Assembly: GCF_900105455.1 (NCBI RefSeq)
Contig: NZ_FNSF01000008.1
Span: forward strand, 372,001 to 436,000
DNA: 64,000 nucleotides
Direction of reading: 5' to 3'
Origin: Tenacibaculum sp. MAR_2009_124
GTDB taxonomy: Bacteria > Bacteroidota > Bacteroidia > Flavobacteriales > Flavobacteriaceae
Made by a program: the position numbers and the translations under genes. The notes under the pieces are model-generated. The model made no database searches, had not been told where the DNA came from, and saw only the letters and a program-made list of their open reading frames with translations. How positions within the stretch are numbered: position 1 is the first letter of the stretch; each line of letters begins with the position of its first letter. This document shows, one piece after another, positions 39,901-61,609 of the stretch.

Positions 39901-42900
39901 TTACCATAAAAGGGAATGCCGATGGAGAGGCTATCGGAAATTTTGTTGCCGGTTTAGGAGATGTTAACGGTGATGGCATTGATGATCTTGGTTTTCAAGG
40001 GGGAAGAACAAATAAAACTTTTATCCTTTTCGGAAAAACAGGAAACCATCCACGTACTATTTCTACTGGTGAAATAAATGGTACTAACGGATTTTATGTT
40101 GATGTTTCTTCTTTTACATCAAACCGATATAAGACATTAATAAACGGGGTTGGTGACATTAATAATGACGGAATTAATGATATTTTATTCGGAAATTCCT
40201 ATCTGTTTTTTGGAAAGAATACTCCTTTTTCTGCTGAAGAAGATATAACGACCTTAAATGGGACTAATGGGTTTAAGGTTTCATCAACTCCTACTGTTGC
40301 CAGCTCTGGAGGTGATTTTAATAACGATGGAATTGATGACCTTCTTTTAGGAACTTATGGAAGAAGTGTTATTGTTTTTGGAAAAAATACTCCGTGGAAT
40401 GCAACTATCTCTCCATATTCATTACCTCCTTCTGAAGCATTTATAATTCGTTCTTCTCTTAGAGAATATCCATTAGCAAATTTAGGGGACATAAACGGTG
40501 ATGGAATTACTGATATCATAATTGGAGAAAAAGAAAGGTTGTACTATGATAGTAGTTCTAGTTTAGATCCTGGTCATGCTTATGTTATTTATGGTTTTTC
40601 AGTTCCAGATACAGAGGCGCCTGTAATTACTTGTCCATCTGATCAAATCTTAGCTTCTGGAAATTTATTGCCAGACTATACTTCCTTAGCAACTGTAAGC
40701 GATAATTGTGATGTAAATCCAATAGTAACTCAATCTCCTACTGCAGGCAGCACCTATACTCCAGGAATGACCATTACCCTCATTGCAACCGATGTGAAAG
40801 GAAATACTAATGATTGTACTTTTGTTGTAAATGAAATTGTTGACTCGGTTCCTCCTACAGCCAGTAATCCATTATCACTGAGTTTTCAGTGCTCTAGTGA
40901 TGTTCCTACTCCAGATCCTTTAGTGGTTACTGATGAGGCGGATGACAGCATGATTACACCAACAGTTACTTTTATTAGTGATGTTAGTGATGGAGCGAGC
41001 AATCCTGAATCTATTACAAGAACCTATCGTGTTACTGATCAAGCAGGAAACCACACCGATGTACAACAAACCATTATTGTAAACGATACCATTAATCCAA
41101 CCGCGAGTAATCCACCAAATGTAACAGTAGCTTGTTCCTCTGATATTCCTGCTGCCGATATAACTATTGTAAATGATGAAACTGATAATTGTACCGCAAA
41201 TCCAACAGTTACTTTTATTAGTAATGTTAGTGATGGAGCGAGTAATCCTGAAACTATTACAAGAACCTATCGTGTTACTGATGAAGCAGGAAACTTTATC
41301 GATGTAATACAAACAATTATTGTAAACGATACCATTAATCCAACTGCGAGTAATCCACCAAATGTAACAGTAGCTTGTTCCTCTGATATTCCTGCTGCCG
41401 ATATAACTGTTGTTACTGATGAGACTGATAACTGTACCGCAAATCCAACAGTTACTTTTATTAGTAATGTTAGTGATGGAGCGAGTAACCCTGAAACTAT
41501 TACAAGAACCTATCGTGTTACTGATGAAGCAGGAAACTTTATCGATGTTACACAAACAATTATTGTAAACGATACCATTAATCCAACCGCGAGTAATCCA
41601 TCAAATATTGCGGTGGCTTGTTCCTCTGATATTCCTGCTGTCGATATAACTGTTGTTACTGATGAAACTGATAACTGTACCGCAAATCCAACAGTTACTT
41701 TCGTTAGTGATGTTAGTGATGGAGCGAGCAACCCTGAAACTATTACCAGAACCTATCGTGTTACTGATGAAGGAGGAAACTTTATCGATGTAATACAAAC
41801 AATTATTGTAAACGATACCATTAATCCAACCGCGAGTAATCCACCAAATCAAACAGTAGCTTGTTCCTCTGATATTCCTGCTGCCGATATAACTGTTGTT
41901 ACTGATGAGACTGATAACTGTACCGCAAATCCAACAGTTACTTTTATTAGTGATGTTAGTGATGGAGCGAGCAACCCTGAAACTATTGTAAGAACCTATC
42001 GTGTTACTGATCAAGCAGGAAACTTTATCGATGTAATACAAATAATTATTGTAAACGATACCATTAATCCAACTGCTAGTAATCCATCAAATATTGCGGT
42101 GGCTTGTTCCTCTGATATTCCTGCTGCCGATATAACTATTGTAAATGATGAAGCTGATAACTGTACCGCAAATCCAACAGTTACTTTCGTTAGTGATGTT
42201 AGTGATGGAGCGAGCAACCCTGAAACTATTGTAAGAACCTATCGTGTTGCTGATCAAGCAGGAAACTTTATCGATATAACACAAACTATTGTAATAATTG
42301 ATACTGCTGACCCGACGGCGAGTAATCCTCCAAATATTACAGTAGTTTGTTCCTCTGACATTCCTATTCCCGATACAACTGTTATTACTGATGAAGCTGA
42401 TAACTGTACCGCAAATCCAACGGTAACTTTTATCAGTGATATCAGTGATGGTGTTCGAAATCCTGAAACCATTACAAGAACCTATCGTGTTACTGATCAA
42501 ACTGGAAATTATATCGATATCACACAAACTATCGTAATTATGGATACTGTTAACCCGACGGCAAGTAATCCATCAAATATTACGGTAGTTTGTTCTTCTG
42601 ATATTCCTGCTGCCGATACAACTGTTGTTACTGATGAAGCTGATAATTGTACCGTAAATCCAACGGTAACTTTTATCAATGAGATCAGTAATGGAGCGAG
42701 CAATCCTGAAACTATTACCAGAACATATCGTGTTACTGATGAAGCAGAAAACTTTATCGATGTTACACAAACCATTATTGTAAACGATACCATTAATCCA
42801 ACTGCGAGTAATCCTCCAAATATTACGGTAGCTTGTTCCTCTGATGTTCCCGCTGCCGATATAACTGTTGTTACTGATGAGGCTGATAACTGTACCGTAA

Positions 42901-47397: not shown

Positions 47398-48246
47398 TGA
47401 ATTAGTCAATTTCATGACCCCTAATTAAATCCTATTTGAAATGGGTATTTGATTTTAAACAAGCATAAAACAATACATAATTAGATTTTAGTTTTCAATA
47501 GTTGATGTTTCTGCTAGTGCTCGTCTTTGACGGGTGCTTGCAGCATCATGTTTTAGCTACGTAATCGGTATTACTTCTTGAAGGCTTCCAATCTTATAAT
47601 AAGGTTAAATAACGTATTAGGTTTTCTAAGTGTTGAAGGTGCTTAACATAGTCGAGCGTTTTTAATTATCAATGTTCTGTTATCAATAGATCTTATTTAT
47701 TCTTTGATCACTGAATTACTAACTGTTTATAGCTTCTATTCCTGAAGTCATGCCAGCGTGGCTGGGAAAGGTTTTTGTTATTTTTTTTAATTATCAGTGA
47801 TCAATGTTTAATTATGAATGCTCAATTTTAGGTATCTAGTTTTTTGTTATCGTCATTACGAACGTAGCCAAAGCGAAGTGAAGTAATCTTCCAAAACCGA
47901 GCTCTAAAGTTAATCGGAAATATCAATAAACAGATTGCTTCGTTGCATACTCCTCGCAATGACCTACTAATTAATAATTATCAATTTTAAGTGTTGAGTT
48001 CTTTTTAATTTTAAATGTTGAATTTTGAATTCCGCGTCATTTCGACCTTAGGAGAAATCTACACCAACATCAACACAAAAAATAGCAATCAGATTTCTCA
48101 GTTGTTGCCTCCTTCGAAATGACAGAACTGGAATTAACAATGATCACTGATCATTGTTAATTGACAATTGTTCTAAGTAGGATGGGATTCCGAAATAAAT
48201 TTGGAATGACGCTGGGTCTTGATTTTTATATATTTTAAATAATAAG
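47398..48246. repeat. gene-free stretch packed with dispersed palindromic repeats
   Basis: About 850 bp without a credible gene. Visible elements: a fragment of the GCTCGTCTTTGACGGGTGC family (around 47518); an inverted pair CGTCATTACGAACGTAGC ... CTCCTCGCAATGAC (47851-47963); an inverted pair GTCATTTCGACC ... TCGAAATGAC (48034-48125); a perfect 15-bp palindrome AATTAACAATGATCA / TGATCATTGTTAATT around one base (48132-48162), with weaker copies near 47800; and GGATTCCGAAAT ... ATTTGGAATGAC (48186-48213). These look like REP/MITE-type elements common between flavobacterial genes. Confidence 0.7.
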
Positions 48247-48354: not shown

Positions 48355-48909
48355 CTAAGAAAACTCTTTTCCTTCGCTTGTTAGCGGAACTACATTTAAA
48401 CTTAAGCTATCAAGGTTCAAATAAGATTTTACACCTGGTAACAACGGATCGTCCACTTCAAAAATTAATCGATATCTATATTTCCCTGGAGGTAAGGTTG
48501 CTTTTACAGCTCCCGCCCAGTAATAAAAAACTGGAGGTTGTAAAAATGGCCTCCCTTTTTCTTGAGTTCCATAAGGTTCAAGGTTATCGCATATTTTCTC
48601 ATTAATCACCGTACCGTCTTCTTTAATAAATACGATATTACTAATTCTCGCTGAAGGATTGTAAACATAAGGGTTCACCATTTCATCCATATTCACTGGA
48701 TATAGTAACCAGTTTAATACCTGTCCTTGGGTACAAACTGTTTCTAAGGCTGGTGTCCCTTTATTTTCACTGTGAAATGAATTATCCGTTAAATACACAG
48801 CATCTTCTAAAGACTTCGTTCTATAAATCGTTTTTAAATCGATGGTCGTAACAATATTCAATTGAATTCCGTTAGCAACACCTAATCGTTTACTATCTTT
48901 TGTTGCCAT
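48355..48909 (-). CDS. AidA/PixA inclusion-body family protein (copy 4)
   Basis: 184 residues. The family pattern is recognisable: an N-terminal strand (IQLNIVTTIDLKTIYRTKSLEDAVYLTDNS), a GTPALETVCTQGQVLNWLLYPV segment, a long insertion with YNPSARISNIVFI, and a final YYWAGAVKATLPPGKYRYRLIFEV. PixA of Xenorhabdus forms cytoplasmic crystalline inclusions and AidA is a related secreted or quorum-controlled protein; the biochemical role of the family is poorly known. It is the last gene of the operon, three bases after copy 3, and no signal peptide is seen. Confidence 0.78.
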   Translation of the reverse strand: MATKDSKRLGVANGIQLNIVTTIDLKTIYRTKSLEDAVYLTDNSFHSENKGTPALETVCTQGQVLNWLLYPVNMDEMVNPYVYNPSARISNIVFIKEDGTVINEKICDNLEPYGTQEKGRPFLQPPVFYYWAGAVKATLPPGKYRYRLIFEVDDPLLPGVKSYLNLDSLSLNVVPLTSEGKEFS

Positions 48910-48912
48910 GTC

Positions 48913-49326
48913 TTATTTCTTTTTAATGATTGATTTAATACTTGGTCCGTTAGTAACGGAAAACACTGTTTTTGTATCCCCCACATTAAAATCGATCGTA
49001 TATCCTAATTTTTTCGCTGGTGCTTTCAAAACTGTCGCTGTCCAAAATGGAATATTCGTTCCGTCGTAATAAGACTTTACGGGCTGGGTAACATAGGTTT
49101 TGTTTACCTTGATGGTATTTATTTCAACATACGATTCTACTTCTAAACCAAAAGCACTCCAAACCAGTTCATCACCTTTTTCAATAGCGGTTTCTAAGTT
49201 TGCCGTTCCTTCTTTATCTGACCCATTTAACTTATTGTTATCCATAAGATATAGGTTCTTTTCAAGTGTGTTGTTTGATAATACTGCTACAACATCTACA
49301 ATTGCTTTTATACTTATAATGCTCAT
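48913..49326 (-). CDS. AidA/PixA inclusion-body family protein (copy 3)
   Basis: 137 residues. It shares the family plan: IISIKAIVDVVAVLSNNTLEKNLYLMDNN, GTANLETAIEKGDELVWSAFGL, VEINTIKVNKTYV, FWTATVLKAPAKKLGYTIDFNVG. It is shorter than PixA (about 170-180 residues) and has lost part of the central insertion. It is preceded by copy 2 after 11 bases and followed by copy 4 after three. Confidence 0.78.
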   Translation of the reverse strand: MSIISIKAIVDVVAVLSNNTLEKNLYLMDNNKLNGSDKEGTANLETAIEKGDELVWSAFGLEVESYVEINTIKVNKTYVTQPVKSYYDGTNIPFWTATVLKAPAKKLGYTIDFNVGDTKTVFSVTNGPSIKSIIKKK

Positions 49327-49337
49327 GTTTCTGGTTA

Positions 49338-50156
49338 TTAAATTGGTAAATAAGAATCTCCTGCTCCAGTGAATCCGTTTTTCATAGGATCTCTTGAAAT
49401 AAGAATTGACGCATCAAAAGACATTGTTACTGGCTTCCAATAGGCTGGTGCGTCTTTGGTTTCTTCTATCAAATCAAACAAGGTTACATCCACAGTATAC
49501 GAAAACTGTCCCTCATGGGCTGTATTTACAGTTGCGCACCAATACCATCCTTCCGTTGAAAAGTTCGGGGAACCGTATTGCGCTGGAAAGATAATACCTA
49601 GATCTACTGCTTCTCCTGTAATATTGGTGATAACGGGCGGATGGTATACAATATCGTCTTTATTCCCTGCTACTTTTTCTACCAATTCACCTTTTGTGTT
49701 AATTAAAGGCCATGCTGATTGAATGCCCGTTTTTGCATCGTTACTTATATGAAGCCCTGCCGCACCAAGTGTGCTCTCTTGCAAGTGATTTCTTAAATCA
49801 ACTAGCTGGTCTTCTTTATTTTGTTTTGCCTTTTCTCCTTTTAAATTTTTATTATCTAATAAAGGTAACTTACTCAATACCGACTCAATAGTTTTGCTTT
49901 TATGATGTGCCGTTCTTTGAACAGATCTTGGTAAATCGTTAATGTCGATGGCTAACCAGTTCATTACTTCTTCTCCCGCTTGACTTCCATCGTACCAATA
50001 GGTTCCATTTACTTTAGATACTAAATGATTTGTTCCTTCATGCTCAGACCCAAAACCTTTCATGTTTCCAATAAGGTACACATGCTCCTGCAAATCTTTG
50101 GTTTTTAAAGCCGCTTTTACATCGACCATCACCATAATTCCGAATTGTTGACTCAT
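49338..50156 (-). CDS. AidA/PixA inclusion-body family protein with central insertion (copy 2)
   Basis: 272 residues, much longer than the family norm. The start (FGIMVMVDVKAALKTKDLQEHVYLIGN), the GEEVMNWLAIDINDL segment and the end (GWYWCATVNTAHEGQFSYTVDVTLF) match the family. Between residues about 82 and 165 is an extra charged helical insert (KSKTIESVLSKLPLL, KGEKAKQNKEDQLVDLRNHL). The insert has no known match to me. Copy 2 lies 18 bases after copy 1. Confidence 0.75.
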   Translation of the reverse strand: MSQQFGIMVMVDVKAALKTKDLQEHVYLIGNMKGFGSEHEGTNHLVSKVNGTYWYDGSQAGEEVMNWLAIDINDLPRSVQRTAHHKSKTIESVLSKLPLLDNKNLKGEKAKQNKEDQLVDLRNHLQESTLGAAGLHISNDAKTGIQSAWPLINTKGELVEKVAGNKDDIVYHPPVITNITGEAVDLGIIFPAQYGSPNFSTEGWYWCATVNTAHEGQFSYTVDVTLFDLIEETKDAPAYWKPVTMSFDASILISRDPMKNGFTGAGDSYLPI

Positions 50157-50174
50157 AATTTTAGCTTTTAATGA

Positions 50175-50591
50175 TTAATAATGTGCCGGTAAAATTTTTA
50201 ATGCAGGTGTCTGGATTTCCAATACACTCTTTTCTCCTTTACCAATTTGCAGCACAAGATTGTAGTGATATTGTACGGCATGATCTGCAACACGAGGAAC
50301 AATTCCTGTCCATACTAGAGCATCTAAATTTTCATCATCAGTATTTCGAGGTTCCGATGGATTCGATGAAAATGAAATTTCTTTGATACTTACAGGTGTT
50401 TGCACATCAACCGCTTTTACAGTCCAATGTATTTTTTGATAGGGTACGCAAGACGTTACCAGTTTTGATCCTCCCTGATTCTTATTCGCAAAAGGGCTAT
50501 CATCCACCATCACGCAGTTTCCTTCAAGACTTTGATCTAACAAAGCCTTGATAGCATCTACCATGATCATAATGTTAATTTGATTTGACAT
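50175..50591 (-). CDS. AidA/PixA inclusion-body family protein (copy 1)
   Basis: 138 residues. INIMIMVDAIKALLDQSLEGNCVMVDDS at the start, YQKIHWTVKAVDVQTPVSIKEISF, LDALVWTGIVPRVADHAVQYHYNLVLQIG and the ending LEIQTPALKIL follow the family plan closely. It is the first of four such genes and begins 37 bases after the second ligase gene. Four different family members side by side suggest hetero-oligomer or successive assembly, but this is inference. Confidence 0.8.
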   Translation of the reverse strand: MSNQINIMIMVDAIKALLDQSLEGNCVMVDDSPFANKNQGGSKLVTSCVPYQKIHWTVKAVDVQTPVSIKEISFSSNPSEPRNTDDENLDALVWTGIVPRVADHAVQYHYNLVLQIGKGEKSVLEIQTPALKILPAHY

Positions 50592-50628
50592 ATTATTGTT
50601 GGTTAGTTAATCTAATGCATTATTTTAT

Positions 50629-52221
50629 TTAAAATTTATCTCTGATTAATGGTGTTTTTCCATGGGCGGTTCTGAAAATTTTATTCGACCCTTTTTCAAC
50701 TACTTCTACAAAAAATTGATAGTTACTTTTTTCAATATACCCTCTATTGGCTTCCCAAGTATTAAACAAAGGAAGTGATTGTATAAGTGCTTCCACAAAA
50801 AGAGTATTGATTGTTTCTTCTCCTAAATTGGCAATGCTCTTTTGAAATTCATCTGCTTTTAATGCTGATACTATCAAGGTAAGTTCTTTTGATTTTCGGT
50901 CATTTAAAAACTGAATTTCAATTGCCTGTTCTTTTAAAGGAATCTCTTCTTTTTCTAGTGTTGCAAAAAGTTTCTTTTCTGCTTTTGGTGCCGAAAAATG
51001 AGAGTCTCCTAAATGAATTACATCACCACTTCTTCCTTTAAATAAAAACTGTTCTGTTTTCAGTTCAGGAGTATTCAATCTTTTTAATCGCACCACTCGA
51101 TCTCCTAGTTTATAGCGAATATTGGGTACTTTATTGGTATGTAATCGAGTAATAACCAACTCTCCTTCTTCTCCTTCTTTTACCCATTTTCCATTTTCAT
51201 CAACGATTTCAACAAAGTGTAATCCTGGCACGGTTGATAAAGCCTGATTTGCATGGTCTAGTTGTAAACCGATAGTCTCTGCCTGTGTAGCCGCAAAATA
51301 ACTGAGTATTTCAACTTGAGGATATACTTCTCGTAATGCTTCTTCTTGCTTATTCGACATCAATCCACTTCCATACATGGCAATTTTAAAGCTATTCCTT
51401 CTTTCTTCATCCATCCCTCGACCGAAATCAGCCAGTAGAGCAATTGCATTGGAAGTAGACATAATAGCTTTTTCTCCTTTATAAGACATCATATGCTGAA
51501 ACACCTTAGTATTTAAAGGCCCTGCTCCTAAAAAGTTTACCTTCGGAATTTTCTGTAACACACCTCCTACCATGGTTCCACTACTCCACATTTGATAATC
51601 AGCCAATGTCGTAGCCATCCATTTTGGTCCTTCTTTTGAAAGGTATTTATCGGTAATAAACTTCCCCATGAATTCTCCTGCCATTTCATAGGTTTCTTGA
51701 AGTTCTTCTAATTCATACACCGTTTCTAAAGGAACTCCTGATGAAGTACCTCCACTTGCCACGATTTCAAAACCACCTTCACTAAAAGGAACAATCATCC
51801 CCTCTCGCTTGCCGTTAAAAGCCGCAACCATGGTTTCTTTATCCGTTAACGGAATGCTTTGCCATGCTTCAAAATTTTTGGGTACTTCGGTGATTCCTGC
51901 TTCCTTCAATCTGTTTTTCCAAAATGGATTAAAAAACAAATTGTTGGTCATTTGTTGCAATCTTCTTAAGATAATGGCTTCCTGAATATCGAAATCGAAC
52001 TCGTAAAACTTCTTTCCAAGTTGCTTTTCAACTTCTTTTATTTTATGATAGAAATGAGGTTGCTGAATAACTTCTTGAATGTTTTTTACCGACAATTCCT
52101 TTTCAGGAATTAGTTTTTCGGCAAGCGTTACCTCATCACTATTTTTTATTGTTATTATTTTATTTTGTTTTATTGATACCTCCTTTTCTAAAGTATCTGG
52201 CGTTGAAATATTAGTGCTCAT
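50629..52221 (-). CDS. adenylate-forming (ANL, PaaK-like) ligase, copy B
   Basis: 530 residues. Adenylation motifs are in order: the phosphate loop ASGGTSSGVP (155-164), YFAATQAETIGL (308-319), YKLGDR (370-375), FKGRSGDVIHLGD (394-406), and the catalytic lysine in AHGKTPLIRD (Lys522). The enzyme would activate a carboxylate as an acyl-AMP and pass it to CoA, a carrier protein or an amine. It has a ~50-residue N-terminal extension. No carrier protein is seen nearby. It is seven bases after a PLP decarboxylase. It is paralogous to the ligase at 53804 along its whole length, with DNA almost identical in the block encoding VPGLHFVEIVDENGKW. Confidence 0.85.
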   Translation of the reverse strand: MSTNISTPDTLEKEVSIKQNKIITIKNSDEVTLAEKLIPEKELSVKNIQEVIQQPHFYHKIKEVEKQLGKKFYEFDFDIQEAIILRRLQQMTNNLFFNPFWKNRLKEAGITEVPKNFEAWQSIPLTDKETMVAAFNGKREGMIVPFSEGGFEIVASGGTSSGVPLETVYELEELQETYEMAGEFMGKFITDKYLSKEGPKWMATTLADYQMWSSGTMVGGVLQKIPKVNFLGAGPLNTKVFQHMMSYKGEKAIMSTSNAIALLADFGRGMDEERRNSFKIAMYGSGLMSNKQEEALREVYPQVEILSYFAATQAETIGLQLDHANQALSTVPGLHFVEIVDENGKWVKEGEEGELVITRLHTNKVPNIRYKLGDRVVRLKRLNTPELKTEQFLFKGRSGDVIHLGDSHFSAPKAEKKLFATLEKEEIPLKEQAIEIQFLNDRKSKELTLIVSALKADEFQKSIANLGEETINTLFVEALIQSLPLFNTWEANRGYIEKSNYQFFVEVVEKGSNKIFRTAHGKTPLIRDKF

Positions 52222-52228
52222 CGTTAAC

Positions 52229-53794
52229 TTATGTTTTTATAATACCATTTGGTATTGAAGAGGTTTGTATAATTGTTTTTCCTATTACTTTAATTTCTTG
52301 AAGTAATGTTTTAAAATGATTTAATTCGGTGTTATGATTCATGAACACCACTCTTAAAGCTATTTTTCCATCGAGACTTACTTTTGAAATAAAGAAGTTT
52401 CCATGTGCTTTGAGTTGATCTCTAATTTTTAATTGGAAATCGGTTATTTGGATGGCGTTTTCTTCGGAGGGTATATATCGAAAACACAGCATATTCGCCT
52501 CTGGCTGATGAAGTACTTCAAAATCGTCTTCTTTATTGAGTTCTTGATATGCTCTCTGTGTAAGGTTGTATAGATAATCTATTTTCTCCTCAAAAACCGA
52601 TACTCCATGAAATGCCCAAACACCCCATAAATTCATAATCATAGGTCTTTTGGTACATTCAATATTCTTTTTTGCTCCATCGTATTTGGTATACTCGTCT
52701 TCTTCTTCTTCAAAAACATAACTTGCTGTTTGACGAAAAGCCAATTTACTTTTACGTTTGTCTTTATAAAAAAGCATGCTACAAGTTCCTGGAATAAACA
52801 TCATTTTGTGAGCGTCCCAAGTAATAGAATCGGCTCTATTAATTCCTTTTAACTTTTCTTTTTGCTGTTGAGAAAGTAAAAAACTAGCGCCATGTGCACC
52901 ATCAACATGTAACCAACAATCTCTTTCTTCAGCAACCTCAGCAAGTTTATCAATCGGATCAAAGGCGCCTACCGCTGTTGTTGCCGCATTGGCCACGATA
53001 CAAAATACTTTAAACCCATTTTCTTTTGCTGCGGATAATGTTTCTCCTACTTTAGAAACATCTACCTGTCGCTTATCATTTATCGGTAATAAAATAATAT
53101 TATGTCTGCTTAAACCGAGCATTTCAACGGTTCTAATAATGCTATAATGGGCTTCTTCACTTACAGCAATAGCAGGAACCTCTCCCTCTTTTATACTTAA
53201 AATTCCTTTTTTCCAAAACTCTGGGAAGTAGTAATTTCTTGCCGATAACAACGCTGTTAAATTTGCCAAAGACCCTCCAGTAGTAGTAACCATATCGAAC
53301 TCATTCGCTGGATACTTAATGAACTTATTTAACTCTTTCGCCATAAAGGTTCTTACCACACTTGGTAATTGAGCTGCCTCATAAAAAGACGAGGGCTGAC
53401 TTAGCATAGAGCTAATAAAATCAAACACTCCAGCAATTGGAAATACCGAAGAAAATTGTCGTCCCATATATCCTGGTGAATTCGCTTGGACACCCGTTTT
53501 TAAATACAAATCAACAATGTTGCTTAATTTTTCGTTTAGGTTCTTATCATTTTGTGAATTCATGACACCCAAAACCTCCGTCATTAAGTCTTGCGGATTT
53601 TGAACATTAACTCCTCGAAGCTCGCTCTTACTTTGGGTTAAATAATTTTCTATTTTGGTAAGAATCAATTCGGATTGTTCTTCAAATAAAAGGGTATCGA
53701 AAACCTTTTTATAATCGACTAATTTTTGTTCCAACTCATGGACTGCCGTTGAATAATTTTCAACCAACTCCTTTTTTTTCACTGTCACTTCCAT
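52229..53794 (-). CDS. PLP-dependent group II decarboxylase-like enzyme, copy B
   Basis: 521 residues. The fold-type I landmarks are TTGGSLANLTAL (171-182, phosphate loop), EEAHYS with His216, HVDGAHG (296-302, Asp298), and the PLP lysine in TWDAHKMMF (Lys330). This is the pattern of glutamate/aromatic amino acid decarboxylases, although some members are aldehyde synthases or lyases. N-terminal SPGYMGRQFSSVFPIAG and the late VVFMNHNTELNHF segments are shared with copy A. It lies nine bases after one ligase and seven before the other. The substrate cannot be read from sequence. Confidence 0.88.
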   Translation of the reverse strand: MEVTVKKKELVENYSTAVHELEQKLVDYKKVFDTLLFEEQSELILTKIENYLTQSKSELRGVNVQNPQDLMTEVLGVMNSQNDKNLNEKLSNIVDLYLKTGVQANSPGYMGRQFSSVFPIAGVFDFISSMLSQPSSFYEAAQLPSVVRTFMAKELNKFIKYPANEFDMVTTTGGSLANLTALLSARNYYFPEFWKKGILSIKEGEVPAIAVSEEAHYSIIRTVEMLGLSRHNIILLPINDKRQVDVSKVGETLSAAKENGFKVFCIVANAATTAVGAFDPIDKLAEVAEERDCWLHVDGAHGASFLLSQQQKEKLKGINRADSITWDAHKMMFIPGTCSMLFYKDKRKSKLAFRQTASYVFEEEEDEYTKYDGAKKNIECTKRPMIMNLWGVWAFHGVSVFEEKIDYLYNLTQRAYQELNKEDDFEVLHQPEANMLCFRYIPSEENAIQITDFQLKIRDQLKAHGNFFISKVSLDGKIALRVVFMNHNTELNHFKTLLQEIKVIGKTIIQTSSIPNGIIKT

Positions 53795-53803
53795 AGTTCA
53801 ATT

Positions 53804-55363
53804 TTATAAATTGGTATCAAGAATATCTCTGAAGAAGGGTACTTTACCTACTTCTGTCCTATGAATTTCAGAAGAATCCTTTTCTACAAATTTTATTTCA
53901 AATTGATATCCTAATTTTTCAACAGTATCGAAGTTGATAGAGGATTTACTATACAAGCCCATTGAGTTTACTAGAGCGTCTTTCACTAAACATTGCATTC
54001 CATACACACCTAGTTTTCCTCCTATAATTTGTTGATTTTGGATAGCATTTTCAGAAGTCAATAAAACCGATAGCTTTCTTTCCTTTCTACGATTCACTAT
54101 TTGAACATGTGAGGCTATCATATCCACATCAAAAGCATATACGTTTTTTAAGGCATTCTTTAAATACTCGTAGGTATTTAACGCTGAAAACTGATGATCA
54201 TCTAAATGAATAACATCACCACTTCTTCCTCTAAATTCAAATTGAAATGCTTTTAACTCTTTCTCATTTCTTAACGGTAATCTAACAGCTCTATCACCCA
54301 ATTTAAATCTAATTAAAGGAGCTTCGTTACAATGTAATCTTGTAATTACTAACTCGCCTTCTTCTCCTTCTTTTACCCACTTTCCATTTTCATCAACGAT
54401 TTCCACAAAATGTAACCCCGGAACAGTCGTTAAGGCATTATCATTCTTATCTAACTGAATAGCAATAGCTTCCGCTTGCGATGCAGAAAAATAACTTAGT
54501 ATATCAAGATTTGGATATAATTCTTTTAATTCTGCTTGTTTTTTTGCTGGTAATAAACCACTACAATACAATCCTAAACGCAGGCTATTTCTGGTTTCTT
54601 CGTCTAAATCATTTCCATACTCATAAAGACTTCCTATTTGCTCGGTGGTACCTAAAAACACTTTTGGACCTTCATAATTCATCATTAAATGATATACCTT
54701 TTTGTCGATAGGACCCGCAGCAATATAATTAGCTCCTGGTATTTTTTGTAAAACACCTCCTACCATGGTTCCACTACTCCAAAGTTGATAATCCGCATAG
54801 GTGGTAGTTACCAAAGGTGCCTTTTCTTTTTTATCAAAAAATCGATTAAAAAGTTGATTCGCCATAAACTTCCCCGAAATATCATAGGTATCTTCTAACT
54901 CTTTTAATGAATACACCGTTTCCGAAGGTTTTCCGGTACTGGTGCCTCCACTCGCTACAATTTCGAACCCGCCATTTTCAATCGGCACTACCATTCCTTT
55001 TCTATCTTCTGAGAAAAAAGAAATCGCCGTTTCTTTATCGGTTACAGGTAACTTTTGCCAATCTTCAAAACTTTTTATCGGTTTGGTAACTTCAAAATCT
55101 TTAAATCGTTGTTTCCAATGTGGGTTTAATTCTAAAATATTTTTTATTTGTTGTAATCTCAATAAGATAATCTCCTCTTGAATGGCAGAGTTTAAAGAAT
55201 CAAAAGAAGCTCCTTTAAAATGTTGTTCAACTTGATGTAATTTTTCCGAAAATCGAGACAATCCTATTACTTGATTTATAGATTTTGGTTTTAGCTGATT
55301 GGCTGGGTATATTTTTTTCAGGAAAGCTTTGTAATCAGCTTCTGGGTTTGTTTTCTTACTCAT
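53804..55363 (-). CDS. adenylate-forming (ANL, PaaK-like) ligase, copy A
   Basis: 519 residues. Motifs: ASGGTSTGKP (137-146), YFSASQAEAIAI, FKLGDR, FRGRSGDVIHLDD, and the lysine in EVGKVPFFRD (Lys507). It would form an acyl-adenylate like copy B. The start overlaps the end of decarboxylase copy A by eight bases, so the two are translationally coupled. The pair decarboxylase plus ligase is repeated directly downstream, evidence of a tandem duplication followed by divergence in the substrate-facing parts. Confidence 0.85.
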   Translation of the reverse strand: MSKKTNPEADYKAFLKKIYPANQLKPKSINQVIGLSRFSEKLHQVEQHFKGASFDSLNSAIQEEIILLRLQQIKNILELNPHWKQRFKDFEVTKPIKSFEDWQKLPVTDKETAISFFSEDRKGMVVPIENGGFEIVASGGTSTGKPSETVYSLKELEDTYDISGKFMANQLFNRFFDKKEKAPLVTTTYADYQLWSSGTMVGGVLQKIPGANYIAAGPIDKKVYHLMMNYEGPKVFLGTTEQIGSLYEYGNDLDEETRNSLRLGLYCSGLLPAKKQAELKELYPNLDILSYFSASQAEAIAIQLDKNDNALTTVPGLHFVEIVDENGKWVKEGEEGELVITRLHCNEAPLIRFKLGDRAVRLPLRNEKELKAFQFEFRGRSGDVIHLDDHQFSALNTYEYLKNALKNVYAFDVDMIASHVQIVNRRKERKLSVLLTSENAIQNQQIIGGKLGVYGMQCLVKDALVNSMGLYSKSSINFDTVEKLGYQFEIKFVEKDSSEIHRTEVGKVPFFRDILDTNL

Positions 55364-56885
55364 TTAATGTAGTTTTTTTGTTTGGTACTAGGCTTTCTCC
55401 TATTCTCTTAATTTCAGTTAGAAGCTCATTGAAATGAACCATAGTTACTTCATGATTCATGAACACTACTCTTAAAGCAGTTTCCCCTTCGATTTCAACT
55501 TTAGAAATAAAGAATTTTCCATCTTCTTTTATAATATCTCTTATAGTTAATTGTACATCTTTTACTTTTAGATCATTTATATTCTCAGGTGAATACCTAA
55601 AGCACAGAATATTTGCTTCTGGTTTATGCAATGGATAAAAATCTTTTTCTAATTTTAGTTTATAATACGCTTGCTTGGTTGTAGCGCATAACTCTTCCAA
55701 TTTTTGAGCGAAAAATTCTCTTCCATATAATACCCATGGAATCCATAAATTCATAATCATAGGTCGTTTTGTACATTCGAAACTCTTCTCCCCTCCATCT
55801 AAATTGTTCGAATCGCTTTCAAATATGTAGCTCGCTTTTTTATAGAATGTTTGCTGAGCTGCCTCTTTATTTTTGTAAAATAAAAGCGTACAGGATGCAG
55901 GTAAAAACATTGTTTTATGCGCATCTAAGGTGAAAGAATCTGCCAATTCGATTCCTTGTAATTTTCCTCTTAATTTTTCTGACACTAAAAAACTTCCCGC
56001 ATGCGCTCCATCTACATGTAACCAATAGTTCTTTTTTTTACATAATTCTGCCAAATCATTTAACGGATCAATAGCGCCTACTGGAGTAGTTCCCGCCGAA
56101 GCCACTAGACAAAAAACAGACAACCCACTGGCTTCCGCTTCTTCTAGTTTTTGTTCAGCCTGAATCATGCAAATCTGACCTTTTTTATTCACTGGTAATG
56201 ACACTATTTGGTCTTCTCCTATTCCAAGAATACCAACAGCTCTTTTTACTGAATAATGAACATCTGAACTCATGGCTACGGCAGGAACTCCTTTGGATGA
56301 ATTGTTTAAATAATAAAAGTTCGGGATTTTACAATTCCTGGCCGTTAACAACGCTGTTATGTTTGCTAAAGACCCTCCAGAAGTAGTAACAACATCATAT
56401 GTGTTTTTTTTCCACTCTAGTAAATTTCCAAATTCATTAGAAATAACCTTTTCAACAATACTTGGCAATTGAGCCGATTCATAAAAAGAGGAAGGCTGAC
56501 TCATCATAGAGGTCAATAAATCAGTTAGCCCTGCAATTGGCACCACACCTGAAAATTGCCTCCCCATATATCCTGTTGAATACACTGGAATTCCAGTTGC
56601 AATATAAAGATCTACGATTTCCTCATAAATTTTCATACTTACCTCTCCGTCAAAATTTTTATGACTTCTTTTCGTGTACTCTTCTACTAATTCTTCTAAA
56701 CGATTTGGTCGAATTAACTGTAATCCTCTAGAAGAAGTATTGTTTATATTCTTACTTAACTTTTTAACCGCTACAGAAACGGCCTCTCTAAGGATATTAG
56801 CATCAAATGCTTTTTGAGTTTTAGGTATAGATATATCATGATCAAGAAGCATTAGCTCCTCATCAAAAGAGTTGTTTTTGTACAT
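55356..56885 (-). CDS. PLP-dependent group II decarboxylase-like enzyme, copy A
   Basis: 509 residues. TTSGGSLANITAL (167-179), DVHYS with His210, HVDGAHAGSF (290-299, Asp292), and TLDAHKTMF with Lys324 are all present, so it should be catalytically competent. The start is the ATG at 56885; a good SD-like AAGGAG lies just upstream of a second ATG 14 bases earlier in another frame, which would give a short overlapping leader peptide. It is the first gene of the eight-gene operon. Confidence 0.88.
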   Translation of the reverse strand: MYKNNSFDEELMLLDHDISIPKTQKAFDANILREAVSVAVKKLSKNINNTSSRGLQLIRPNRLEELVEEYTKRSHKNFDGEVSMKIYEEIVDLYIATGIPVYSTGYMGRQFSGVVPIAGLTDLLTSMMSQPSSFYESAQLPSIVEKVISNEFGNLLEWKKNTYDVVTTSGGSLANITALLTARNCKIPNFYYLNNSSKGVPAVAMSSDVHYSVKRAVGILGIGEDQIVSLPVNKKGQICMIQAEQKLEEAEASGLSVFCLVASAGTTPVGAIDPLNDLAELCKKKNYWLHVDGAHAGSFLVSEKLRGKLQGIELADSFTLDAHKTMFLPASCTLLFYKNKEAAQQTFYKKASYIFESDSNNLDGGEKSFECTKRPMIMNLWIPWVLYGREFFAQKLEELCATTKQAYYKLKLEKDFYPLHKPEANILCFRYSPENINDLKVKDVQLTIRDIIKEDGKFFISKVEIEGETALRVVFMNHEVTMVHFNELLTEIKRIGESLVPNKKTTLNE

Positions 56886-57273
56886 GTTGTTTGGTTCATT
56901 TATCGTTCTCCTTTCTGAACAATATCTTGTTTAGAAAAGAAAATCTTACTCCATAATTCATGGAATTATCTTGTAATACTTGTTTAAAATTATAGTAAAA
57001 AAAATGTGTTAAAGAATAAATGACACCAACAACAACTTTTTGTTTACAAACAGCAAAAAACAATATGAACATCAAAAAACTCACACTTAAGTTCGAAATA
57101 CAAACACTTAAGGGTTTTCTAAAAAACAGGGGTTGATATTTCAATAATTTAGACATCGAGCTCCATCATCAACACATTAATTAAAGGAGTAATTAGCTCG
57201 ATTTTAAGGATGAATATTAAAATACTTATCAGAGTTTCTCTATCAATTTTAAACACAATTAATACCAAAGGAT
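56886..57273. other. 388-bp divergent control region of the decarboxylase operon
   Basis: It separates the minus-strand operon from the LytTR regulator on the plus strand. An imperfect palindrome CCATAATTCATGG lies at 56952-56964. No TAnnTTTG box is evident on either strand. An 86-codon minus-strand frame inside it (56896-57156) has no recognisable features and is not called. It should contain both promoters and the operator. Confidence 0.5.
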
Positions 57274-57984
57274 TTGTACACAGAAACAAAAAAAATACTC
57301 GTTATACGTAAAAAAATAGAGGTATCTAATCGTTTAAAAGAAAGCTTAGAAAGAAAACCTTATTATCATGTAGATGTGGTTACTTCGGGAGGAGAAGCTA
57401 TAAAACTTGTTGAAAAAAACGAGTACGACTTATTATTGGTTGATCTTTATCTGAATGAGTCAAATAAGACCAACGGAATAGACTTGATAAAATACTTGTC
57501 GGAAAAAAGTAGCTTTAAACATGTGTATATTTCAGACCAAGGAACTATGGATATTATTGATAAGGTTAAGGAAACGAATCCTTCCACCTTTATCATCCCT
57601 CCATTTACAACAAACTCAATTTTTGCTCAAATAGAAATCATTCTGAATTCAGGTAATAGTAACTCTTACCTCAGCTATTCATATAAAGGGATGCAACAGC
57701 AAATTTCGTTAGCCAGCATTAGTCACGCAAAATCAGATGGAGCCTATATTAAATTATTTAGTAGTTGTGGGAAACAATACTTTGTACGAAAATCTTTATC
57801 GAACTTAAGAGAGTTATTACCTTCTGCTTTTATCAGAATACATAAATCTATTTTAATTAACAAAGACTATGTTCAAGGGTACTCTAGTCAATATGTAAAA
57901 GTAAATCGAGAAAAGTTACCTATTGGAAGAGCGTATAAAGAACTTTTTTTATCGCAAGTAAAGGAATCTACTTTTTCGTTTTAG
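57274..57984 (+). CDS. LytTR-domain regulator with degenerate receiver
   Basis: 236 residues from a TTG; there is no ATG upstream before a stop at 57250. Residues ~8-125 are receiver-like: the phospho-acceptor Asp is kept (DLLLVDLYLNE), but the acidic pair is replaced by Arg-Lys (ILVIRKK in place of ILIVEDE) and the Lys-Pro switch reads FIIPPF, so normal phosphorylation is doubtful. Residues ~135-236 are a LytTR DNA-binding domain (ISLASISHAKSDGAYIKLF, YFVRKSLSNL, FIRIHKSILINKDYV, LPIGRAYKELF). It is divergent from the decarboxylase operon and probably regulates it. Confidence 0.85.
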   Translation: MYTETKKILVIRKKIEVSNRLKESLERKPYYHVDVVTSGGEAIKLVEKNEYDLLLVDLYLNESNKTNGIDLIKYLSEKSSFKHVYISDQGTMDIIDKVKETNPSTFIIPPFTTNSIFAQIEIILNSGNSNSYLSYSYKGMQQQISLASISHAKSDGAYIKLFSSCGKQYFVRKSLSNLRELLPSAFIRIHKSILINKDYVQGYSSQYVKVNREKLPIGRAYKELFLSQVKESTFSF

Positions 57985-58009: not shown

Positions 58010-58741
58010 TTAAAATAAACTCAGCAATTTGCTCCTATTCATCTTCGAAACAGGTACTCTTCTTTCATTTTCCAAAACAATATATCCTTCATTTTCAAAA
58101 GCTCTTATTTTTTGAAGATTTATAATATGAGATTTATGGCATTTAAAGAAACTATCACTTAGCATTTTTTCATATTTTCCAATATTGTAAGAGCTTATAA
58201 TTTCCGAAGTATTTGTATGTATTTTCGTATAACCATCATACCCTTCAATATGTAAAATTTCATTATGTGGAATAAAAAGCAATCCTTTGTTTGTAGGAAT
58301 CACCAACTTATTTGAGTTGGACGTCGTTTTTGCAAAATGATTTAACAACCGTTCGTTTTTAATTAGTTTATTTTTTTGATTTACATTTTTTAATGCATTA
58401 TTTATCATAGATTTTAGCTCATCATTATCAATTGGTTTTAACACATAACCGATAGCGCTGTACTTAAAAGCTTCTATTGCATAATTACTATATGCAGTAA
58501 CAAAAATAATTTCAAAATTAGGATTTGTAAGTTTTGCTAAAACGTCAAACCCTGTTAAAACAGGCATTTCAACGTCTAAAAATAAAACATCAGGATTATT
58601 TCTATTGATAAAAACAATAGCCTCTTGTGGATTCTGAAATTTTCCTATAATACTAATATTCGGAAAAAAACGACTTATCTTTAAGGCTAAACTTTCAAGT
58701 GCATTTTCCTCGTCATCTACTAAAATGGCGGTTAATTTCAT
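58010..58741 (-). CDS. LytTR-family response regulator
   Basis: 243 residues. The receiver is complete: acidic LVDDEENAL, phospho-acceptor DVLFLDVEMPVLTGF, Ser/Thr and Lys in FVTAYSNYAIEAFKYSAIGYVLKPID. The LytTR domain follows (LLFIPHNEILHIEGYDGYTKIHT, FFKCHKSHIINLQKI, RRVPVSKMNR). It ends three bases from the histidine kinase gene and forms a classic LytS/LytR-type pair. It could phospho-signal independently of the degenerate regulator next to it. Confidence 0.94.
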   Translation of the reverse strand: MKLTAILVDDEENALESLALKISRFFPNISIIGKFQNPQEAIVFINRNNPDVLFLDVEMPVLTGFDVLAKLTNPNFEIIFVTAYSNYAIEAFKYSAIGYVLKPIDNDELKSMINNALKNVNQKNKLIKNERLLNHFAKTTSNSNKLVIPTNKGLLFIPHNEILHIEGYDGYTKIHTNTSEIISSYNIGKYEKMLSDSFFKCHKSHIINLQKIRAFENEGYIVLENERRVPVSKMNRSKLLSLF

Positions 58742-58744
58742 TCA

Positions 58745-61609
58745 CTACAACATTTTAAAAGTTAGCGTTACCGAAGTTCCGGTTATTTTATTGTTGTTTA
58801 AATGTACTATTTTTTTTACTACTTTCCATTTTTTAGATTGATTGATTAACGCTATTCTATCTTTCATGATTTTGGTAGATTTTGAAGTATGCTTTTTAAT
58901 TGAATTTTCCTTAATTTCCTGTGCTTTTTTAAAACCAACTCCATCATCTTCTATTGTTATTTTAAACTCGTTTTTAGTTATATTTTCAATATAAATAATA
59001 ATATTTCCTTTTCTGTTATTGTGAAAAACTCCATGGTTTACCGCGTTTTCTAAAATTGGCTGTAATAACATCGTAGGAATACTCGTTTTTAAATTGATGC
59101 TCTTATCAATTATAAACTGATAGTTTAAACCATCGCCAAAACGCATTTTTTCAATTTCTAAATACCCATTTAGTAAATCAATTTCCTGCTGTAAGGTAAT
59201 TGTTTTTTCCGCGGAAAAATCGAAAAACATTCGTATTAATTTGGAGAATTTAACCAAATATTTTTCTGATAAATCAATTTCATTTTTAGTAATATAATAC
59301 TGAATTGCATTTAACGAATTAAATACAAAATGAGGGTTCATTTGCGAACGTAATGCATATAATTCTTGCTCTACTAATTGTTGTTTAACTTTAACTTCTT
59401 GTTTTGATTTTTCCTCTATTCTCTTTTTATTCCATTGGTACAAAAAGTATAGAAATACTAAGAATACAAAGAAAGCAGTTCCTTTAAACCAATATGTTTG
59501 ATACCATAATGGAAGCACTATTAAGGTAATGACTTTGGTTATTGATTGCTGTTTATGATTGCTTACCTTTAAATGTAAACGATAGGTTTTAGGAGCTAAT
59601 TGACTAAAGTTTATTTCAGAAGTATTTGTATGTATCCATTTTTTTTGAATTGGATTCAATTTGTATTGATATCTTAAATTTTTCTGGTTACTATAATTAA
59701 CTGCTCCAAAAGAAATGTTTAAGCTACTGTTTTCTTTATATGGAAAAGAAATAGTGTCACCTTTATAAGAAATACCACTAGCAGTTAGTGCCTTTATGTA
59801 TAACTTTTGAAGTTGATTAATTGGTTTTCGTCGTAATGAAATTACTGAAACACCAATATCTGTAGCTACGAACAGCGAGTCGTTTTTAACGGTCACGCTG
59901 TTTGTTTTATTAGATAGCAACCCATCTGTTTCAAAAAAAGACTGTGTTATTTGATATCCGTTTTCTTGTTTTATAGCTTTATGAACTCCTTTTTCAGTTG
60001 CTAACCAAACGCTTTTATCGGTGTTAATAAAAATATTTTGAACACTTAAGTTTTCAGAATTATCAATAAACATTACTTCTTTCCCATCAGTGAAATAAGC
60101 ACCAAAGCCATCTGTACCTACTACAGTATAATTATTATTAAATTGTGTTTGAAATAGTATAGGTTTTTGAAATAAAGAATGCTTCTCTAATTTAAAAAAA
60201 ACATCATTTTGTAAAGAATACAAACCAGATTGATTCCCTATAAATAACTGCGTATTAGTTTTTGAAAAAGAAGACACGCCAAATAATTTATATTCTTTTT
60301 CAACTATAAAATTTTTACTATTTATTTTATGAACTCCGAAAGAATTATTACCATATAATACTCCTTTAAAACCAATTAATTTACGAGCAAATTCATTTTT
60401 AAAATGTTCATATTTTGGTGTACTTACTTTTACTTTTTTAATCGTTTTATTTTTATAGCTGTAAACATCATATTCCGAAGAAAAAAAAGTAGTTTTAAGA
60501 GTATCAATATAATTGATTCCATATTGAAATCCGCTATTCTTTATCAAAGAACGTAAGTTGTTGTCTTCTAAAATAAAAAAACCTTCTTTGTAAACACCCG
60601 CATATATCTTATCTTCTATATATTTTAATTGCTGAATTTTTTTACCTTCTCCCAATATTTGTAGCTGTTGTTTTTCTTTTGGGAGCATAAAAACACCTTT
60701 GTTAAAAGTTGCTGACCAAATATTACCTGTCTTATCCACAAAAGAAAAATGACTGTTCCTCTTTTCAGGAATAGATACCGTATTTTTTAGCCTTCCGTTT
60801 ACATCTAAATAACTCACAAAATTCATCCCTGTAAGTTGTATATGATTATTCACATTATGAAACCTAAAATATTTAAGATTACGAGGTAAATTTTGAGAAG
60901 CATAAGTATGCGTATGTATTTTTTCTGAATTAAAATTTTCAATAACATAATGCTGCTTAGCTATGCTAATATATAAGCTATCGTTAATCTGACCATTTTC
61001 TGATGTTGTTTCAAGTATTTCTTTTTCGATTGGAAATATTTTTTTATTTTTTTCTTTATAAAAAACAATATTATTTCCTTTTTTACCAACACTGTGAAAA
61101 CGAATTGTTGGATGTATTACTTTTTGTTTTGAATAGCGTTCGTTGTTGGATATAAGATTTTTTGTAGCTTTCCAAAGTGAATCCTTTAAGGTATAGTGAA
61201 AAATTCCATCATTAAACCCAACCTTATTTTTAACTTGAAATATAGCTCTAGGGTATAATGTTTTATTGGTTTTGGTAGCAAAAGCATATACACTATCATT
61301 TTTAATATAACCCAATTTATTTGATTTAGAGAAGTACCAAACTTTATTATCGGGTGTAATTCTAATATTCCAAATATCGTTGGTAGGCAATCCGTTTTTT
61401 GTAGTAAATGTTTTAAAGGTTTTTCCGTCGTATTTTACCATTCCTTTATCGGTAATAAACCATATAAAACCTTCATAATCTTGTGTTATTCTATATACAT
61501 GGTTACTTGGCAATCCGTTTTCTACTGAGAAATTAGTGTATTGCTGCGCATATGAAAAACCCCATATTAATAATAAAAGTAATGTACTCTGATATTTTTG
61601 TAGTCTCAA
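58745..61609 (-). CDS. propeller-sensor histidine kinase (LytS-type)
   Basis: 954 residues. Signal peptide (LLLLLIWGFSYAQQ), then about 600 residues of two-component-regulator propeller repeats (NGLPSNHVYRITQDYEGFIWFIT, GKTFKTFTTKNGLPTNDIW, NIFINTDKSVWLATEKGV), a Y_Y_Y-type domain (LRYQYKLNPIQKKW), one membrane segment (FKGTAFFVFLVFLYFLYQW), a coiled coil and a His_kinase domain with MNPHFVFNSLNAIQYYI and an ATPase (LLQPILENAVNHGVF, IEDDGVGF). The periplasmic propeller would sense an external molecule. Confidence 0.93.
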   Translation of the reverse strand: MRLQKYQSTLLLLLIWGFSYAQQYTNFSVENGLPSNHVYRITQDYEGFIWFITDKGMVKYDGKTFKTFTTKNGLPTNDIWNIRITPDNKVWYFSKSNKLGYIKNDSVYAFATKTNKTLYPRAIFQVKNKVGFNDGIFHYTLKDSLWKATKNLISNNERYSKQKVIHPTIRFHSVGKKGNNIVFYKEKNKKIFPIEKEILETTSENGQINDSLYISIAKQHYVIENFNSEKIHTHTYASQNLPRNLKYFRFHNVNNHIQLTGMNFVSYLDVNGRLKNTVSIPEKRNSHFSFVDKTGNIWSATFNKGVFMLPKEKQQLQILGEGKKIQQLKYIEDKIYAGVYKEGFFILEDNNLRSLIKNSGFQYGINYIDTLKTTFFSSEYDVYSYKNKTIKKVKVSTPKYEHFKNEFARKLIGFKGVLYGNNSFGVHKINSKNFIVEKEYKLFGVSSFSKTNTQLFIGNQSGLYSLQNDVFFKLEKHSLFQKPILFQTQFNNNYTVVGTDGFGAYFTDGKEVMFIDNSENLSVQNIFINTDKSVWLATEKGVHKAIKQENGYQITQSFFETDGLLSNKTNSVTVKNDSLFVATDIGVSVISLRRKPINQLQKLYIKALTASGISYKGDTISFPYKENSSLNISFGAVNYSNQKNLRYQYKLNPIQKKWIHTNTSEINFSQLAPKTYRLHLKVSNHKQQSITKVITLIVLPLWYQTYWFKGTAFFVFLVFLYFLYQWNKKRIEEKSKQEVKVKQQLVEQELYALRSQMNPHFVFNSLNAIQYYITKNEIDLSEKYLVKFSKLIRMFFDFSAEKTITLQQEIDLLNGYLEIEKMRFGDGLNYQFIIDKSINLKTSIPTMLLQPILENAVNHGVFHNNRKGNIIIYIENITKNEFKITIEDDGVGFKKAQEIKENSIKKHTSKSTKIMKDRIALINQSKKWKVVKKIVHLNNNKITGTSVTLTFKML

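Follow-up and report, generated by a model that had tools for sequence, protein, structure and literature searches.

The mak operon of Vibrio cholerae (makDCBAE) encodes two adjacent small proteins of 126-131 residues, MakC and MakD, together with three alpha pore-forming toxin subunits. In the available parts of PMC11484084 both small proteins are described as cytosolic beta-sandwich proteins that are dimeric in crystals, MakC cross-links into large complexes, and the function of the pair is given as unknown. The PixA/AidA proteins of Xenorhabdus and Burkholderia (PF12306) are of the same broad beta-sandwich type and are called poorly understood in the accessible portion of PMC9060813. No enzyme partners are named for them in the available parts of PMC9060813, PMC6127331 and PMC4706420, and in those of the last two PixA, decarboxylase and inclusion bodies are mentioned separately only. 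The subject here is a locus of Tenacibaculum sp. MAR_2009_124 (genome of 5.5 Mb), contained in a stretch of 64,000 nucleotides (contig NZ_FNSF01000008.1, positions 372,001 to 436,000), which is called the window. In this locus four MakC/D-type proteins, P1 to P4, are encoded directly after two pairs of enzymes, each pair consisting of a group II pyridoxal 5'-phosphate (PLP) decarboxylase and a PaaK-like adenylate-forming ligase of the ANL type. A module of four such proteins, a decarboxylase and a ligase differs from the mak operon in both the number of small proteins and their partners, and a Pfam scan of the eight genes found no domain of the mak-type pore-forming toxin subunits.

The core of this locus is a module of six genes, decarboxylase, ligase and P1 to P4, which recurs in the same order in distant bacteria. 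Searching with the ligase alone, a scan of genome contigs led to loci in an uncultured Tenacibaculum (L001), a second member of the Flavobacteriaceae (L002), Kordia (L003) and Filimonas (L004); tblastn on plasmid records gave seven full-length matches (Nonomuraea gerenzanensis, Bradyrhizobium barranii, Sinorhizobium alkalisoli and four B. elkanii plasmids), and genome G791 (locus L021) emerged when the Filimonas family was surveyed. In 12/12 of these outside loci a decarboxylase gene lies directly upstream of the ligase gene, and four genes with the lengths of P1 to P4 lie directly downstream. Three of the B. elkanii loci (L028-L030) were judged by annotation: their P1 to P3 carry the protein accessions of L008, as does P4 in one of the three. 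Since the four records from B. elkanii are almost copies of one another and L001 is a close relative of the window, the number of independent lineages is smaller than 12; the lineages are Flavobacteriaceae, Chitinophagaceae, rhizobia and Nonomuraea, which belong to three phyla. The sequence-only reading had made its system depend on the enzymes and the small proteins staying neighbours in other genomes, and this they do at every outside locus. Its two decarboxylase-ligase pairs are present in the window but are not a general feature, as the second pair was seen only in the four Flavobacteriaceae loci; the trees leave both origins of that pair standing, duplication or a second arrival. Carrier proteins, transporters and other tailoring enzymes are absent from the core.

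Alignments and trees were made from ten genomes (the window, L001-L008 and L021). The mean identity between the four lineages, over 35 pairs, is 45% for the decarboxylase, 49% for the ligase, 34% for P1, 37% for P2, 35% for P3 and 42% for P4; the ligase of L008 and the decarboxylase of L007, which have truncated annotated starts, were left out of the enzyme rows of the identity and invariant-residue comparisons. The pairwise identities of the six families correlate with r 0.87-0.97 over 45 genome pairs, values that are inflated by close relatives and for which the B paralogues were taken in Flavobacteriaceae. That two unrelated operons, one of enzymes and one of small proteins, came to lie side by side by chance is hardly credible given the same order in 12/12 outside loci from three phyla, even though the gap between LigB and P1, 37 bp in the window, widens to 247 bp in L001. 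The plasmid collection bears on the same point. Twelve of its records match the ligase, seven at full length and the other five at 22-25% identity over 59-68% of the query, and the seven full-length records are the same seven that match P2 and the same seven that match P4; a free-standing pathway formed by the enzymes was rejected for this reason.

The closest named family of P1 to P4 is NF049870 (MakC/MakD), matched at E 6e-10 to 3e-17, although its curated cut-off of 110 bits is not reached, the best scores being 63 bits in the window and 65 in other lineages. Of ten P proteins from other lineages, nine match the family at E<=0.001, and P2 of L006 follows at 0.006. Profiles built from the orthologue sets, with 8 rows each, find both Mak structures in the PDB: against 8rqy, taken as MakC from its entry title, the E values are 6e-11 for P1, 2e-6 for P2, 8e-19 for P3 and 3e-8 for P4, and against MakD (6tct) they are 2e-8, 4e-5, 9e-12 and 1e-6 in the same order. 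For P2 the likeness extends to the fold, as seen with a weak predicted model (mean predicted confidence, pLDDT, of 50), which superimposes on 8rqy with Z 7.1 and a root-mean-square deviation (rmsd) of 3.3 over 100 aligned residues and on 6tct with Z 6.9 and rmsd 3.0 over 94; no Foldseek match at E<=0.001 was obtained with the same model. The model also aligns with PixA (4lzk; Z 4.7, rmsd 3.7, 103 aligned), at values that unrelated folds reach too. None of P1 to P4 matches the Pfam PixA family, PF12306, at E<=1; a whole-genome search with PF12306 at E<=0.001 is uninformative by itself, having found no match in any control genome. The four proteins had been called PixA-like on first inspection, which may hold for the wider fold, of the MakC/MakD type, but does not hold for the Pfam PixA family. 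A short match of P1 (residues 8-48) to formate-tetrahydrofolate ligase, at E 9e-4 and under the cut-off, was taken as chance.

Although they belong to one family, the four proteins are not interchangeable copies. In a tree built with the 40 P sequences of the ten genomes each position forms one branch (support 90/84 for P1, 100/100 for P2, 100/99 for P3 and 100/97 for P4), and for each of the four none of 500 label shuffles clustered as well; the tree program warns of long branches, so that the relations among the four groups are unsure. Because the positions form four separate branches, each is a distinct part of the module. The duplications behind P1 to P4 thus appear to be older than the module's spread, and in none of the lineages has one protein been swapped for another.

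Both decarboxylases belong to group II, as indicated by the family model (PF00282) and by the PLP lysine (in DAHK), the stacking histidine, the aspartate and the C-terminal arginine, all of which are kept in 14/14 decarboxylases of the set. DecA and DecB are 46% identical, and the closest PDB relatives of the decarboxylases include GAD1, GADL1 and CSAD (DecA against GAD1 3vp6, E 1e-51). The module enzymes share the four residues with the glutamate, cysteine sulfinate and diaminobutyrate decarboxylases of this group; they differ from GAD1 in having a histidine in place of the tryptophan of HVDAAW, and from the group in the missing loop tyrosine of 7/14. The catalytic-loop segment, in which GAD has its tyrosine, lies between SY[IV]F and ECTKR. 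A tyrosine is found in this segment in 7/14 decarboxylases (the four DecB proteins, Filimonas, G791 and Nonomuraea), and the segment has none in the other seven (the four DecA proteins and the three rhizobial enzymes). The segment of DecA aligns to GAD1 with a three-residue gap, and the tyrosine of DecB is one column off that of GAD. For aromatic amino acid decarboxylases, the available part of PMC11308512 states that simple decarboxylation requires the catalytic-loop tyrosine and that its replacement by phenylalanine makes aldehyde synthases of them, reportedly also in the case of mammalian DDC and human HDC. Since seven of the 14 module decarboxylases, DecA included, have no tyrosine in the segment, an aldehyde product is also possible; by analogy, DecA may make an aldehyde, or another proton donor may serve. 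An open reading frame (ORF) for a copper amine oxidase lies directly upstream of the Nonomuraea decarboxylase (L005 5187-8066), and because it adjoins the decarboxylase an amine product would fit in that lineage.

The ligases are 48% identical to each other (LigA against LigB) and match the NCBIfam ANL models DVU_1553, FlxY and PaaK; against PF00501 they score 15.7 and 16.1 bits, under its curated cut-off (29.9). Their adenylation motifs and C-terminal GK lysine are kept in 14/14 ligases; the claim that the PLP lysines, aspartates and ligase lysines of the window are intact therefore holds throughout the set. A profile of ten ligases finds 4r1l in the PDB at E 1e-14, and a predicted model of middling quality (mean pLDDT 63) aligns with 4r1l at Z 10.0 and rmsd 11.9 over 318 residues and with 4rvn at Z 9.8 and rmsd 4.5 over 234. 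The motifs, the lysine and the PaaK-like fold place the enzymes in the PaaK branch of ANL proteins, from whose members, of about 430 residues, they differ in being about 515 residues long, the additional residues lying ahead of the N-domain and within the C-terminal part. Comparison of the model with ester- or amide-forming PaaK relatives gives Z 8.0 for NatL2 (6tm4), 8.0 for AjiA1 (6wuq) and 6.9 for ClxA (9s45), values too low to single out those relatives. According to the accessible part of PMC7204872, NatL2 is a PaaK relative in which a C-terminal extension excludes coenzyme A (CoA) and an ester is formed, and by analogy a CoA-independent ligation by the module ligase is possible. In the plasmid records 262 match the decarboxylase at E<=1e-20, and the best 25 are the seven module records followed by 18 at 26-33% identity. 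Beside a relative in Azospirillum (L027) lie no ligase gene and no P genes, and for an unannotated one in R. lusitanum (L026) tblastn of the plasmid records gave no ligase match in its record. The decarboxylase family is, by these matches, one with relatives beyond the module, and the ligase family, in these data, is without such; the ligase is, as judged by its sequence, a divergent PaaK-like family encountered solely in this module context.

The conserved block in distant bacteria points to a system not yet described, in which a small molecule would be made and then handled by a protein assembly. In the reading preferred here, the module moves between bacteria horizontally, its enzymes make an amine or aldehyde and ligate it, and a hetero-assembly of P1 to P4 serves the enzymes or their product; taken as a whole, this is held with a little less than even confidence. 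The decarboxylase would convert an amino acid to an amine, or to an aldehyde in the versions without a loop tyrosine, and the ligase would convert a carboxylate to an acyl adenylate that is then joined to the amine or to CoA. The sequence-only reading had suggested that the product is perhaps an N-acyl amine or amide, packaged in or bound by the small proteins, which may be so. Because the four paralogues are fixed, a single assembly is the simplest reading: a cytosolic hetero-oligomer of P1 to P4 would serve as a docking place for the enzymes or keep hold of the product. The second enzyme pair of Flavobacteriaceae would contribute a variant of the reaction, and P1 to P4 would serve both pairs. 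It is unlikely that P1 to P4 form a four-component particle recruiting the decarboxylase and ligase, a new type of compartment or assembly-line scaffold of which MakC and MakD would be reduced relatives. Enclosure of the enzymes by a shell, tube or crystal-like inclusion built of P1 to P4, rather than their service by a soluble carrier or scaffold, would agree with the four fixed paralogues that adjoin the enzymes in all loci examined and with the description of PixA-family members as inclusion body proteins of stationary-phase cells (PMC9060813, available part); MakC and MakD, the closer relatives, are cytosolic and form crystal dimers, not inclusions, in what PMC11484084 makes accessible, and enclosure seems rather unlikely.

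The ligase might instead act on the small proteins themselves, one of which would receive an acyl group or an amine. The ligase gene lies directly 5' of the P genes in all loci examined and encodes an unusual branch of the ANL enzymes, as such a role would lead one to expect. Across ten sequences of each, however, P1 to P4 contain no invariant lysine, so that modification on lysine was rejected, and their sole invariant cysteine is C59 of P4; attachment of an amine to a glutamate, an aspartate or the C-terminus is still conceivable, and modification of the P proteins as a whole is regarded as quite improbable. Another role would make P1 to P4 the active agents, either AidA-like factors directed against nematodes, protists or neighbours or helpers of secreted factors, with the enzymes supplying a linked small molecule. 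The available part of PMC9060813 reports that aidA is required for Burkholderia virulence in C. elegans, and that of PMC11484084 that the genes of MakC and MakD accompany those of a pore-forming toxin. G649, a genome from the window's family, also has two MakC/D-type genes (L015 1094-1914 and 1946-3004), which are followed, in a mak-like arrangement, by a protein matching the HBL family. The eight genes of the window contain no pore-former or other toxin-like domain, the core is without secretion genes, and, in the part of PMC11484084 at hand, MakC and MakD are not secreted and complementation with either left nematode survival unaltered; a role as active agents is accordingly thought unlikely. 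Neither a decarboxylase nor a ligase occurs within the 3.2 kb examined around the G649 pair, and MakC/D-type proteins therefore occur without the enzymes. An anti-phage defence system was considered and rejected, the only PADLOC matches being weak ones, to DndA/SspA, that the two decarboxylases owe to their PLP fold; the other six proteins had none.

Several points weigh against the preferred reading, in which an amine or aldehyde would be made and ligated and one hetero-assembly would serve the enzymes or their product, its chemistry and assembly being inferred from the genes. The case for a hetero-assembly is drawn from the fixed set of four paralogues, and MakD was mostly monomeric in cross-linking (PMC11484084, part available). 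The structural models are weak for P2 and middling for the ligase, and the systematic survey covered Bacteroidota genomes and plasmid records. The chemistry may differ among lineages, as the loop tyrosine is missing in half of the decarboxylases, and the pathway may too, because a hydrolase was seen beside the core in rhizobia and Nonomuraea only. This is an isochorismatase-type cysteine hydrolase, which adjoins the core in the rhizobial loci L006 (14110-14667), L007 (13949-14509) and L008 (14192-14740) and is convergent in Nonomuraea (L005 13997-14545, minus strand); the ORF lists for the loci of Flavobacteriaceae and Chitinophagaceae showed none. In favour of the reading, DecB and LigB lie in one open frame of 1046 residues in Kordia (L003 11567-14707); this could be a fusion, but in a single genome it could also come from the loss of a stop codon or an error in sequencing.

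The layout of the locus in the window is given in Table 1. The eight genes form a run on the minus strand (48355-56885) in the order DecA-LigA-DecB-LigB-P1-P2-P3-P4, with intergenic distances from the first gene to the last of -8, 9, 7, 37, 18, 11 and 3 bases, and the ORF coordinates agree with the order and spacing (-8 to 37) given by the sequence-only reading. Its strong terminator at the end of the operon is borne out by the predicted fold, although a scan for consensus terminators gave no more hits than shuffled sequence and does not list this one. About 850 bases between an HYR-like ORF and this terminator (47400-48240) are without a listed gene. Further off lies an ORF of 2628 residues (36909-44795), opposite which three open frames of 146 residues are spaced 486 bases apart; these equal frames suggest internal repeats.

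Table 1. Features of the module locus (positions in the window)
Feature	Position	Strand	Description
Decarboxylase A (DecA)	55356..56885	-	Group II PLP decarboxylase, 509 residues; PF00282 E 3e-53
Ligase A (LigA)	53804..55363	-	PaaK-like adenylate-forming ligase, 519 residues; NCBIfam ANL models, best E 3e-15
Decarboxylase B (DecB)	52229..53794	-	DecA paralogue, 521 residues; PF00282 E 1e-54; loop-segment Tyr present
Ligase B (LigB)	50629..52221	-	LigA paralogue, 530 residues
P1	50175..50591	-	MakC/D-type protein, 138 residues; NF049870 E 5e-12
P2	49338..50156	-	MakC/D-type protein, 272 residues, exceeding P1 and P3 by about 130; NF049870 E 6e-10
P3	48913..49326	-	MakC/D-type protein, 137 residues; NF049870 E 3e-17
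P4	48355..48909	-	MakC/D-type protein, 184 residues; NF049870 E 2e-12
Intrinsic terminator 3' of P4	48241..48296	-	-20.6 kcal/mol, z -6.6; 0/200 shuffles as good
LytTR regulator with degenerate receiver, divergent	57274..57984	+	PF00072 and PF04397
Candidate LytTR site, 9-bp direct repeats	57083..57112	-	Upstream of DecA

The divergent regulator had been read as having a pseudo-receiver, and the domain matches and residues agree. A canonical receiver carries an acidic pair and a conserved lysine; here the acidic pair reads RKK, the lysine is a proline and the aspartate of VDL is kept, and the regulator is probably independent of normal receiver phosphorylation. It is 87% identical and likewise divergent in L001. 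Between it and DecA lie two identical 9-bp repeats, 12 bp apart, which are exact in the window and L001, the chance expectation at <=3 mismatches being 0.15 for a pattern that was drawn from the same sequence, so that this is no independent test. LytTR binding sites are described with a 9-12-9 layout in the available part of PMC6193735, and the regulator may act on the operon through this candidate repeat in the two Tenacibaculum-type genomes. The exact repeat is missing in 20/21 loci searched, and it is absent from L002 at <=3 mismatches; the LytTR regulator that lies upstream in L002 is another one (21% identical) and is more distant by one ORF. No such regulator was seen beside the core at the other loci in ORF lists and annotation, inspected by eye and with no domain scan. 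Directly beyond the divergent regulator, a second receiver-LytTR-like protein and a 954-residue sensor-like protein, both named by eye, are encoded on the minus strand (58010-61609). In both Chitinophagaceae loci a protein of 217 residues without a Pfam match lies upstream of the core (Filimonas L004 7452-8105 and G791 L021 4629-5282; 67% identical).

The module is rare. At E<=1e-60 the ligase profile matches 1/395 Bacteroidota genomes, 2/397 of the window's family, 2/244 of the Filimonas family and 2/116 of the window's genus; these samples overlap, and the matches are the window's own genome, those of L002, L004 and L001, and G791. The MakCD model matches 1/326 Bacteroidota genomes, the window's own, with four matches that all lie in the operon, and the P4 profile at E<=1e-6 matches 3/299 genomes of the family (the window's own, that of L002 and G649). 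For six ORFs that flank the L001 cluster tblastn found no counterpart in the 64-kb window, and the same cluster therefore has other surroundings in the two genomes. The rhizobial copies (L006-L008) lie near transposases and recombinases, one of them also near a group II intron protein, and the module apparently moves horizontally. Viral carriage was rejected, as a scan of viral contigs, seeded with short peptide patterns and so not exhaustive, found no relative. All eight genes and the regulator are under purifying selection: between the window and L001 the ratio of nonsynonymous to synonymous substitution rates (dN/dS, by NG86) is 0.05-0.09 for each, 0.06 for DecA, these ratios being rough because dS is near or above 1 in several genes.

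Among the matches listed in open-licence full-text literature, judged mostly by title or the start of the abstract, none was seen to describe a system in which a decarboxylase goes together with proteins of the MakC/D or PixA type. By these searches the module appears new as a gene system, while each of its proteins comes from a superfamily already known; subscription journals, or papers that use other names, may describe it. Its ligase brings to light a divergent PaaK-like family, and its enzymes indicate an unrecognised two-enzyme pathway that is carried, among others, on conjugative Bradyrhizobium plasmids. Since in three phyla four MakC/D-type proteins go with two enzymes whose chemistry can be guessed, the role of these proteins becomes testable.

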